Assembly (NCBI GenBank): GCA_029777945.1
Contig: JAKORG010000040.1
Span: forward strand, 1 to 41,995
DNA: 41,995 bases
Source: Deltaproteobacteria bacterium
Lineage (GTDB): Bacteria; Desulfobacterota; Syntrophorhabdia; Syntrophorhabdales; Syntrophorhabdaceae
Direction of reading: 5' to 3'
Shown here: positions 5,475 through 17,679 of the stretch, piece after piece
Position numbering within the stretch: position 1 is the first letter of the stretch
How the letters are laid out: every line of letters starts with the position of its first letter
The notes under the pieces: generated by a model
Seen by the model: the letters and a program-made list of their open reading frames with translations, nothing else
What the model was told of the DNA's origin: nothing
Database searches by the model: none
Made by a program: the position numbers and the translations under genes

Positions 5475-6734
5475 CTATTTAGGTGTTATTCTTATTTTTG
5501 CCTTTTTATCCTTTTCTGCCTCTACTATGACCTTTTCTTCATTGATATAATATGTAACAATTTCCCCTGTTAATTTATCCTGGCCTGAAAACACCGTTAC
5601 ATCCCCCTTTAGGGTTATTATACCTTTTTTATTATCGAATATGGCCTCTTTGCATGTGGATGTGCGTTCTCTTTTAACTATTTTTACATTACCCTTTGCA
5701 TGAGCCCTTTCTATTTCATTAGTGTTTTCATCCATATAGGCCTCTATAGTATCACAGTAGATAAACAAATCTCCCTGCCTTGCAACCACATTTCCTTTAA
5801 AAATTACGTATCTTTCCTTTTCCATTCCCTCCATAGAATCGGATACTATATCTATGGGCTTTTTTTCTTCGAAAAATTTAAATTTTTCCTCTTCCTGGGT
5901 TTTTTGAACAACTGGTATTTGTGGTTTTAATTCAATATCTGTTCTTGGAGTTTTTGACATCAATGTTTGACCTGGAGAGGTTGCCTGTGCCACTTTTAGG
6001 CTTTTTCTCTGCCTTTTAATGTCTGTAAATAAAAATTTACTATCCGAATATTGTGATTTTAATTGTCCATAGTATTGATCTGCTTTATTCTGATTGCCCA
6101 TTGCCTTATAGGATTGGGTTAGATAGTATAAAACCTTCTCTATTCCCTTAGCATCGGGATATTTTTTAAGGACATATTCGAGCCTTGTTATGGCTGCATT
6201 ATACTGGAATGTTTTGTAATAGAATTCACCTATATAAATTTCCCTATCCACCAGCTTCTGTATAAGGGCATCCCTTTTTTTATCCGCTTCTTTTGCATAA
6301 ATGCTTGTGGGGTAACGGTTCAGAAGATAGGTATATCTTTCTATTGCCTTTAATGTATATGCCTGATCCCTATGAAATGATAAAGAAAAGCGTTCATAGC
6401 ATTCTCCTAATTTTTTTAACACATATGGTATGTTTTCATCTTCTGGATGGGCATTAAAAAAATCTTCGTATATGGTAGATGCCTGCACATAATCCTTTTT
6501 CTCATAATATGCATCTCCAAGCTTCACTGTTGCGACAAAGGATATGGGGTCAAAGGGAAAGTTCTCTCTTATTAGAGAAAACTTTTCTATTGCCTTGTCA
6601 TATTTCTTTGCCTTCATCAAATTGACGCCTTCTACGTATAGATCAGCAGGCTTTTCCACTTTTTTAGGTGGCGATGCACAGGATGAAAAAATAGATACTA
6701 ATAATACGAGAAAAAAGATGGTGATTTTTTTCAT
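5475..6734 (-). CDS. Lipoprotein fusing a BamD-like TPR part to an LptA/OstA-like domain
   Basis: A 419-residue protein. The N terminus is a lipoprotein signal peptide with a lipobox ending SSC at about residue 19. Residues about 30-240 are tetratricopeptide repeats of BamD/YfiO type, with motifs such as YDKAIEKFSLIRENFP and PTSIYAKEADKKRD. A low-complexity linker follows, and residues about 295-415 look like LptA/OstA beta-jellyroll repeats (VIFKGNVVARQGD, AHAKGNVKIVKR, ITLKGDVTVFSG). BamD belongs to the outer-membrane beta-barrel machine and LptA is the periplasmic LPS bridge; the two are normally separate. The gene is a single unit diverging from rsmG. Confidence 0.8.
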   Translation of the reverse strand: MKKITIFFLVLLVSIFSSCASPPKKVEKPADLYVEGVNLMKAKKYDKAIEKFSLIRENFPFDPISFVATVKLGDAYYEKKDYVQASTIYEDFFNAHPEDENIPYVLKKLGECYERFSLSFHRDQAYTLKAIERYTYLLNRYPTSIYAKEADKKRDALIQKLVDREIYIGEFYYKTFQYNAAITRLEYVLKKYPDAKGIEKVLYYLTQSYKAMGNQNKADQYYGQLKSQYSDSKFLFTDIKRQRKSLKVAQATSPGQTLMSKTPRTDIELKPQIPVVQKTQEEEKFKFFEEKKPIDIVSDSMEGMEKERYVIFKGNVVARQGDLFIYCDTIEAYMDENTNEIERAHAKGNVKIVKRERTSTCKEAIFDNKKGIITLKGDVTVFSGQDKLTGEIVTYYINEEKVIVEAEKDKKAKIRITPK

Positions 6735-6784: not shown

Positions 6785-7426
6785 ATGATGCTGGAAGAGG
6801 AAATAAAAAAAGGCCTCGATTATTTTGAAATCTTTGTTGATCAAAGTAAATTGAAAAAATTATCACTGTATATTAGTGAGCTTGATAAATGGAATAAACA
6901 TATAAATCTCACAGGCAAAAAGGATATTCCATCCATTATAAGAGAACTTCTCTATGATTCTTTTTTTGTTTATAAACTAATTGAAAAAGGATCCTCTTTT
7001 TTGGATATGGGTTCTGGCTCAGGCATCCTCTCAATTCCTATTGCCATCATAAATAGAGACATTGAGGTTTTTTCTGTGGAAAAAAACACAAAAAAGATAC
7101 ATTTTCAGAGACATATTAAAAGGCTGTTAAGACTTAACCGGTTTTACCCGTTGTTTAAAAGAATTGAACTTTTAGACAATATGAGCGTTGATATCATAGG
7201 GGTTAAGGCCTTTGGCAAAACAGAGATAATACTTGAAAAGGCTGTGAGATTATTGAGAATCAGAGGTAAAGTAATAATATTAAAAGGCAAAAACGCAAAA
7301 CCCGTTGAATTCGAAGGCCTTGAAATGTCTAAAAATTTAACATATTCCTTACCCTGTTCTGAAAAAACATATAAACTTTTTGAATATACATTGAAAGACA
7401 GAAACAATGAAGTTAGAATCGTTTAA
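6785..7426 (+). CDS. rsmG: 16S rRNA (guanine-N7) methyltransferase RsmG
   Basis: A 213-residue class I SAM methyltransferase, close to the usual RsmG length. The N-terminal family signature LDKWNKHINLTG lies at about residues 34-45. The SAM-binding glycine loop FLDMGSGSGILSIPIAI is at about 73-89, and a later ILEKAVRLL segment corresponds to the region usually reading ...ARA. RsmG methylates G527 in the decoding centre. The protein is more divergent than most RsmG in its central part. The start could be the ATG at 6785 or 6788; neither has a Shine-Dalgarno. Confidence 0.8.
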   Translation: MMLEEEIKKGLDYFEIFVDQSKLKKLSLYISELDKWNKHINLTGKKDIPSIIRELLYDSFFVYKLIEKGSSFLDMGSGSGILSIPIAIINRDIEVFSVEKNTKKIHFQRHIKRLLRLNRFYPLFKRIELLDNMSVDIIGVKAFGKTEIILEKAVRLLRIRGKVIILKGKNAKPVEFEGLEMSKNLTYSLPCSEKTYKLFEYTLKDRNNEVRIV

Positions 7427-7471: not shown

Positions 7472-8767
7472 ATGATAGATGGATTTTTAAAAGAAATTGC
7501 AAATATGTTCGATTTTACAAGAAAAGATGCCTGTGAGATGATGAGGTCTTTTCAAATAGAAATGGAGAACGGGTTAAAAGGCAGAAAATCTTCTTTAAAG
7601 ATGCTTCCTTCTTTTGTGAGAAGACCAAAGGGTAATGAAAAAGGAGATTTTCTTGCCATTGACCTGGGCGGCATAAATATGAGAATACTTGCTATAAGGT
7701 TATTAGGTCAAGGCAAAATAGAAACAATAGGAATGAAGAGGTTTTCTTTAGGAAAAGAAATAATCTCAAAAACAGAAGATGTTTTTTTTGATTTTATCGC
7801 AGATTGTGTATCTGCTTTTTTAAAGGAACATAAATTAGATGTTTTTTTAGAAGTTGGTTTTACATTTTCTTTTCCCGTTATACAGACATCCATTTTAAGT
7901 GGTGTGCTTGTCTCATGGACTAAAGGATTTGCTGTAAAAGGTGTTGAAGGCCATGATGTAGTTACGCTTCTCGATAAGGCATTTAAAAGAAAGGGGCTTG
8001 AAAATCTAAAATTGGTTGCCCTTGCAAACGATACAGTGGGCACCCTTGTTACACAAAGTTATATTAATCCTTTATGCGATATGGGTGTGATACTGGGGAC
8101 AGGAACAAACGCCGCATATCCAGAAAGGTTAGAAAGCATTACAAAGTTTAAAGGCATGTGGTATTCGGAGGAGATGATAATAAACATAGAGTGGGGTGGG
8201 TTTGATAAGATAAAAATGACAAAATACGACGAACAACTCGATAAGGATTCAGAAAATCCAGGTGGACAGAGGATGGAGAAAATGGTTTCAGGAAGGTATT
8301 TAGGTGAGATTGCAAGGCGTATAATGAAAGAGGCATTTGAAAAAGGTCTTTTAGGCTCTAAAGAATTAAAAGATATTTTTTTAAAACCTTACAGTCTTAC
8401 CACAGAGCAACTTTCGCTAATTGCATCTGACAAGAACATATTCAATGATTCAGGAATTGAGGGTATTTCAGACAAAGATATAAGGTTATTAAAAGAGATA
8501 GGTCAAATCGTATCAAAAAGGGCAGCAAGGATTGCCTCAGCCGCCATAGCCGCTGTCTTAACCCATATGGATAAGGAGTTGAAATTAGAACATGTAATTG
8601 CAATTGATGGCTCGTTGTTTGAAAAATATAAAGGATTTAAAGAGAATATGGATACTATGATGAAGGAAATTTTTCCCAACCAGGCAGATAAAATCCACCT
8701 CAGCCTTACCCATGACGGTTCAGGTATAGGCGCTGCAATTATAGCAGCAAGCCTCTCATCCCATTAG
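7472..8767 (+). CDS. Hexokinase of the eukaryotic type
   Basis: A 431-residue sugar kinase that matches the eukaryotic hexokinase family rather than bacterial ROK/Glk glucokinases. Diagnostic motifs in order: FLAIDLGGINMRIL (phosphate 1, about 65-78), FTFSFPV (about 128-134), LANDTVGTL with the catalytic Asp (about 184-192), GVILGTGTNAAYPE (about 206-219), NIEWGGF (about 233-239) and DGSGIGAAIIA near the C terminus. It should phosphorylate glucose or a related hexose with ATP. The first motif reads DLGGIN where DLGGTN is usual. Start supported by AAGGAT about 10 bases upstream. Its stop overlaps the stop of murJ tail to tail. Confidence 0.88.
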   Translation: MIDGFLKEIANMFDFTRKDACEMMRSFQIEMENGLKGRKSSLKMLPSFVRRPKGNEKGDFLAIDLGGINMRILAIRLLGQGKIETIGMKRFSLGKEIISKTEDVFFDFIADCVSAFLKEHKLDVFLEVGFTFSFPVIQTSILSGVLVSWTKGFAVKGVEGHDVVTLLDKAFKRKGLENLKLVALANDTVGTLVTQSYINPLCDMGVILGTGTNAAYPERLESITKFKGMWYSEEMIINIEWGGFDKIKMTKYDEQLDKDSENPGGQRMEKMVSGRYLGEIARRIMKEAFEKGLLGSKELKDIFLKPYSLTTEQLSLIASDKNIFNDSGIEGISDKDIRLLKEIGQIVSKRAARIASAAIAAVLTHMDKELKLEHVIAIDGSLFEKYKGFKENMDTMMKEIFPNQADKIHLSLTHDGSGIGAAIIAASLSSH

Positions 8768-17034: not shown

Positions 17035-17679
17035 ATGAAAAAAGGTAAATGTTCGATAATAATTTTCAATATTTTTTTATTTTTCAGTTGCGGTTTTTTT
17101 GCAAAAACAGTATATGCATCTAATTTTGAAGATATAAAGAAGACCTATTCTGCCATTATTACCCTTGAGGCAGGTTTTACACAGAAGATTTTTATATCAA
17201 GCTTAAAAAAGGAAAGGGAGTTTGAAGGTGATTTTTTTTACAAAAGAGGTAAAGGTTTTCTATGGCGTTATAGCAAACCAAAGGGAAGATATTTCCTTTT
17301 TGACGGCAATTTTATATGGCAGGGAGAAGAAGAAAAGCCTTTTGTGTATAAAAGAAAGATAAACAGAGACAAGACAGTGGGAACTTTTTTTGACCTATTA
17401 GATGATATAGCTAAGATAGATGAACTTTTTAACATAAAAGAAAGAAAAAGATCAGGGGATATGGATGTATTAGAATTAGTTCCTAAAAAAGATGGTCAGG
17501 TTTTATCGGCAAAGATATGGGTGGATAGGTTAAACATGGTAAAAAAGATAGAAATTTACGAATTTACAGGTAATATAAATACCTTGAGTTTTACACATAC
17601 AAAGATTAACGATCCTATTAATGATGCAAAATTCATATACAGGCAGGAAAAGGGGAAAGAAATAATAGAATCACATTAG
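17035..17679 (+). CDS. lolA: Outer-membrane lipoprotein carrier protein LolA
   Basis: A 214-residue periplasmic protein with a signal peptide (hydrophobic residues about 8-28, cleavage likely near VYA). Mature-part motifs fit LolA: ITLEAGFTQK, the FEGDFFYKRGKGFLWRYSKP stretch and FDGNFIWQGEEE. LolA shuttles lipoproteins from LolCDE to the outer membrane, where the BamD-LptA-like lipoprotein of this window would be one client. It ends the recO operon, and its stop is only 12 bases from the convergent sugar-transferase stop. Confidence 0.87.
   Translation: MKKGKCSIIIFNIFLFFSCGFFAKTVYASNFEDIKKTYSAIITLEAGFTQKIFISSLKKEREFEGDFFYKRGKGFLWRYSKPKGRYFLFDGNFIWQGEEEKPFVYKRKINRDKTVGTFFDLLDDIAKIDELFNIKERKRSGDMDVLELVPKKDGQVLSAKIWVDRLNMVKKIEIYEFTGNINTLSFTHTKINDPINDAKFIYRQEKGKEIIESH

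Follow-up and report, generated by a model that had tools for sequence, protein, structure and literature searches.

BAM and Lpt are separate complexes in model organisms, and how the insertion of outer-membrane proteins is coordinated with that of LPS is an open question. A gene at 5475–6734 (-) of the stretch of DNA analysed here (41,995 nucleotides; the window) bears on it, as one frame of 419 residues links parts of both machines covalently. What is this protein, how widely is it kept, and what could an LptA domain do on a BAM subunit? A sequence-only reading of the window had described a lipobox, a TPR half of BamD type and an LptA-type half in this frame, and had suggested that such a fusion could couple barrel insertion to LPS delivery. 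The three parts are all present and had been placed correctly; the coupling is a role that the fusion may have, and we weigh it below against other explanations.

BamD and LptA domains in one lipoprotein

According to sequence and profile searches, the frame (419 codons and a stop) encodes a lipoprotein in which BamD is followed by a linker and then by an LptA jellyroll, and relatives have the same architecture. A signal peptide with lipobox is predicted by inspection of the sequence only at residues 1–19 (6678–6734 (-)): the putatively lipidated Cys19 follows a hydrophobic stretch in the motif IFSSC19-A20, such a Cys is kept in relatives, and Ala20 at position +2 is compatible with sorting of the fusion to the outer membrane.

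The BamD (YfiO) TPR domain occupies residues 28–235 (6030–6653 (-)). Pfam YfiO (PF13525) matches residues 28–220 over its gathering cut-off (E 7e-33, 114.5 bits), and the NCBIfam BamD model TIGR03302 scores 193 bits against a cut-off of 81.4, with residues 6–234 aligned to profile positions 4–238 of 239. The half is a genuine BamD and not a protein of the CpoB/YbgF type, the alternative raised by the sequence-only reading: the corresponding model, TIGR02795, reaches 79.3 bits, below its cut-off of 90.1, and a CpoB-like gene is encoded separately on contig C38, after a TolB-like gene. A flexible linker of about 55 residues, fast-evolving and predicted to be disordered (residues 236–290; 5865–6029 (-)), leads to the LptA-type beta-jellyroll (residues 291–419; 5478–5864 (-)). 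Here the Pfam LptD_N/LptA family (PF03968, OstA) matches residues 296–400, again over the gathering cut-off (E 1e-18), and the C-terminal half passes the NCBIfam LptA equivalog TIGR03002 with 74.6 bits against 71.7.

We modelled the fusion with AlphaFold using five sequences, the window protein and L007–L010. The model has TPR helices at 29–228 (pLDDT mostly >90), a disordered stretch at 239–293, with linker pLDDT of about 26–32 across most of 241–290, and nine strands at 295–405, so that the beta-jellyroll expected from the sequence-only reading is indeed predicted. The helical half of the predicted model matches E. coli BamD (3q5m) with TMt 0.90 and rmsd 1.7 (Foldseek/VIA), and by VIA-align with Z 20.5 over 206 residues at rmsd 1.9; its jellyroll half matches E. 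coli LptA (2r1a) with TMt 0.82, and with Z 18.5 over 129 residues at rmsd 2.2 (Foldseek, VIA). When the C-terminal domain is modelled alone, LptA/LptH match first (TM 0.69–0.79 to LptA) and LptD and LptC later, and a profile of the fused LptA-type domains against the PDB matches nothing but LptA/LptH. An LptD N-terminus was considered as well and is ruled out: phmmer E-values are about 1e-22 to free LptA and 2e-4 or weaker to LptD, and no barrel follows.

The protein thus resembles E. coli BamD in its lipoprotein signal, its full five-TPR fold and its single copy, but carries about 185 extra residues, the linker and the LptA jellyroll. The C-terminal half is an LptA domain and not an LptA protein, being covalently attached to the BamD lipoprotein. 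With LptA (YhbN/OstA) it shares the beta-jellyroll and a score over the equivalog cut-off, and with the local free LptAs the N- and C-edge motifs; it differs from LptA in its attachment to an outer-membrane lipoprotein, in lying outside the kdsD-lptC-lptA-lptB locus and in being a distinct paralogue.

Other LptA copies, distribution and constraint

The genome of the window (2.4 Mb, 97% complete) encodes LptB, LptD, LptE, LptF, LptG, BamA and LpxC. The fusion is its only BamD; other YfiO matches are the CpoB-like protein already mentioned and an ankyrin/TPR protein. The sequence-only reading had proposed a check for separate bamD and lptA genes; we found no freestanding LptA in this genome. The second PF03968 locus encodes an LptC-LptA fusion, a single frame of 304 aa (L006:1456-2370 (-), contig C34) between kdsD and lptB, in a kdsD-lptCA-lptB locus that does not include the BamD-LptA gene. 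This protein, too, holds an LptA-type jellyroll within a membrane-tethered polypeptide, but belongs to the inner-membrane side (LptC transmembrane start) and lacks the C-edge motif. Only these two loci were listed by the PF03968 search, yet LptD (680 aa) still has an N-terminal jellyroll, whose score falls slightly short of the Pfam threshold (18.9 bits against 20.4; TIGR03002 E 3e-7). This rules out that the jellyroll of LptD was lost and is supplied in trans by the fusion. From the gene inventory, the BAM and Lpt pathways look complete, with LptA present only as fused domains; as the LptC-LptA protein and LptD carry jellyrolls of their own, the BamD-fused one is additional and not the sole one. 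Single-domain annotation counts of lptA and bamD misjudge the Lpt machinery of these bacteria.

Across the order Syntrophorhabdales (44 genomes, three families) the fusion is present as one open frame in 41, and named relatives that have it include Syntrophorhabdaceae and Syntrophorhabdus MAGs. In one of the remaining three, G020, the contig ends within the frame; the other two, G025 and G027, are without it at 90 and 95% completeness. In nine genomes of the order that were tested, the fusion is always accompanied by another LptA-type domain, encoded in a frame of about 305 aa; a search of these nine for freestanding LptA gave none. A scan of genome contigs returned the order's own members only, plus a Treponema protein matching the TPR part alone. 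We surveyed the phylum through 198 evenly sampled genomes, with matches then extracted and checked by HMM, and found the fusion also in families f10, f11, f13, f15, f23, f26 and f44: at least 33 of the 191 sampled genomes with a BamD match carry it, in at least 10 families when f2 from the order survey is counted. The check for the fusion in related genomes, proposed by the sequence-only reading, is thus positive both within the order and for seven or more families beyond it, and for the same reason the fusion is not an assembly artefact. An assembly chimera is ruled out by uninterrupted frames in many independent assemblies, including the single-contig genome G154. The domain order is invariably BamD, linker, LptA, with linkers of 41–315 aa, many of them rich in Pro, Lys, Glu and Ala. 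The longest unfused BamD frames checked (up to 443 aa) have no LptA match.

Two variants were seen among these frames. Fusions of family f23 (L080:1311-4169, L081:1220-3838, L082:1291-3786) carry a further tail of about 240 aa after LptA, with an NTF2-like Cds6_C domain at its end (E 3e-21 in L080 and 6e-20 in L081; by eye in L082). In family f7, a solo BamD frame (L089:896-1990, G047) has a second, partial match to the BamD profile (71–274 and 287–360), possibly an internal duplication.

Most fusion genomes of the other families also carry a free LptA of 178–240 aa, which in f10, f11, f13 and f15 sits in a kdsD-(kdsC)-lptC-lptA-lptB locus. Compared with the genome's other LptA, the fused domain shows only 20–44% identity, and on the LptA tree 3 changes separate fused from other domains, against 26.6 when shuffled. 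The BamD-fused LptA domain is a conserved paralogue distinct from the other LptA of the same genome. A single origin of the fusion is not rejected by the sequence data (AU p 0.42), with which it is compatible; the fusion state needs about 6 changes on the BamD tree, and f13 and f26 form long branches in the LptA tree.

Within the window's genus the fused LptA domain is under strong purifying selection and as constrained as BamD. Between the window protein and that of a congener, omega amounts to 0.060 in BamD and to 0.045 in the fused LptA domain; dN is 0.2–0.7 in the linker against 0.04–0.28 in the domains. For the window's genus, this dN/dS of about 0.05 rules out a chance fusion whose LptA domain is drifting. 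Mean identity within family f1 is 69.8% for the fused LptA, 66.8% for BamD and 58.9% for the LptC-fused LptA. In f23 the fused LptA is far better kept than the free one (79 against 47% identity), while f13 shows the reverse (65 against 73%). Fused domains generally keep the N-edge motif of free LptA (about PIxIxSD) and, except in f13, its C-edge motif (a basic residue followed by a strand that ends in P), which stands at the free C-terminus of the fusion protein. In f13 (L045, L067–L070) the fused LptA is highly divergent and the C-edge motif is lost, with the free LptA still canonical; decay or a new function are possible explanations.

BamD and LptA are each known as families; the literature searched describes no covalent union of the two, although domain databases may list the architecture. 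Nor did the search yield an LptC-LptA fusion; it was thin on subscription journals and is weak evidence of absence. A 2026 review of BAM mentions neither LptA nor fused proteins, and a study of the evolution of BAM lipoproteins (PMC3359395) does not mention LptA.

Possible roles of the tethered LptA domain

In E. coli, the N-terminal region of LptA contacts LptC and its C-terminal region contacts LptD (PMC3944529), LptD is folded at BAM (PMC12644819), and BepA touches immature LptD on BAM (PMC8423444). With the fusion, lipid anchor and BamD half would bring the protein into the BAM complex to do the ordinary work of BamD, and the tethered jellyroll would extend into the periplasm and form the part of the LPS bridge that is anchored at the outer membrane. 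Its edge strand at the free C-terminus could dock on the N-terminal jellyroll of LptD, a BAM client, as LptD leaves BAM, and its N-terminal edge could take LPS from the inner-membrane jellyrolls, the donor being the LptC-LptA fusion in Syntrophorhabdales and free LptA in the other families. Assembly of LptD by BAM and connection of the LPS pipeline would then be directly coupled. We tentatively favour this docking of a tethered bridge segment on LptD, and give it a little less than an even chance.

The fusion as a whole is real and conserved, and the proposed mechanism is plausible. The anatomy fits coupling: a free C-edge, a flexible linker, a single-copy BamD, no freestanding LptA found in the nine genomes of the order that were tested, and a strongly conserved domain. 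Both halves pass curated cut-offs and match solved folds, the edge motifs and the domains are kept under selection, and long variable linkers are what is expected of a tether. On the other side, LptC-LptA and LptD of the source genome already offer jellyrolls able to meet directly; most fusion genomes of other families keep a free LptA, so that outside the order the bridge can be completed without the fused domain; and in f13 it has diverged and lost the C-edge motif. A stricter version, in which the Syntrophorhabdales bridge consists of an LptC-LptA half at the inner membrane and a BamD-LptA half at the outer membrane and LPS reaches LptD only via a BAM subunit, we regard as rather unlikely. 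If true, such a bridge of two tethered halves would make OMP insertion and LPS insertion physically one machine.

That nearly all fusion genomes also encode another LptA, free or fused to LptC, and that the BamD-fused domain is a separate paralogue, would also suit an LptD-assembly factor in the manner of BepA, LptM or LptE. The fused LptA would then be no conduit and would serve on BAM as a checkpoint or template, where it would pair edge-to-edge with the N-terminal jellyroll of nascent LptD and then pass LptD on to the real bridge; LptD being a BAM client, and the BepA contact with immature LptD on BAM, point the same way. The fused domain, however, keeps the overall features of LptA and not one edge only, its score lies over the cut-off of the LptA equivalog, and none of the nine genomes of the order that were tested yielded a freestanding LptA; we consider this role unlikely. 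BepA, LptM and LptY, which help LptD, resemble the fusion in the role proposed, whether touching LptD during its assembly at BAM or supporting the bridge on the outer-membrane side, but are separate polypeptides and neither BamD nor LptA proteins (PMC8423444, PMC12644819).

The fast-evolving linkers of 41–315 aa, which argue that no precise geometry is kept, would agree with passive anchoring, whereby the fusion just holds LptA at the outer membrane and raises its concentration near BAM-rich zones, with BAM activity not linked mechanistically to the transport of LPS. For that any lipoprotein would do, yet it is BamD specifically that is kept across at least 10 families, and we think this improbable. 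Slightly less probable still, in our estimate, is a jellyroll that no longer serves LPS and has become an extra part of the BAM lipoproteins, a chaperone or a lipid-binding module. Its low identity to the genome's other LptA and the loss of the C-terminal motif in f13 speak for it, as does earlier work that reported no convincing BamB, BamC or BamE for delta-proteobacteria and describes BAM lipoproteins confined to single lineages, such as BamF (PMC3359395); against it, the fused domain of the source genome retains both edge motifs and a score over the LptA equivalog cut-off.

Whichever of these holds, docking of the bridge segment on LptD being our preferred reading, a BAM–Lpt link kept over deep divergence in one phylum is a natural handle on coupling of the two machines, and the fusion protein can be cloned and its halves separated, swapped or cross-linked.

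Gene neighbourhood of the fusion

The fusion gene lies in a housekeeping region, divergent from rsmG (6785–7426 (+)) and facing a thioesterase gene; a promoter and terminator scan gave no signal above chance. Elsewhere in the window, directly after an ftsK-like gene, LolA is encoded at 17035–17679 (+). LolA carries lipoproteins to the outer membrane, and its presence supports their sorting there in this organism. The frame at 7472–8767 (+) encodes a eukaryotic-type hexokinase (Hexokinase_1 E 5e-64, Hexokinase_2 E 1e-70) whose best matches among solved structures are mammalian hexokinases I and II (E 1e-156). This is unusual for an anaerobic bacterium, and the gene was possibly acquired from a eukaryote or is a sign of an old bacterial branch.
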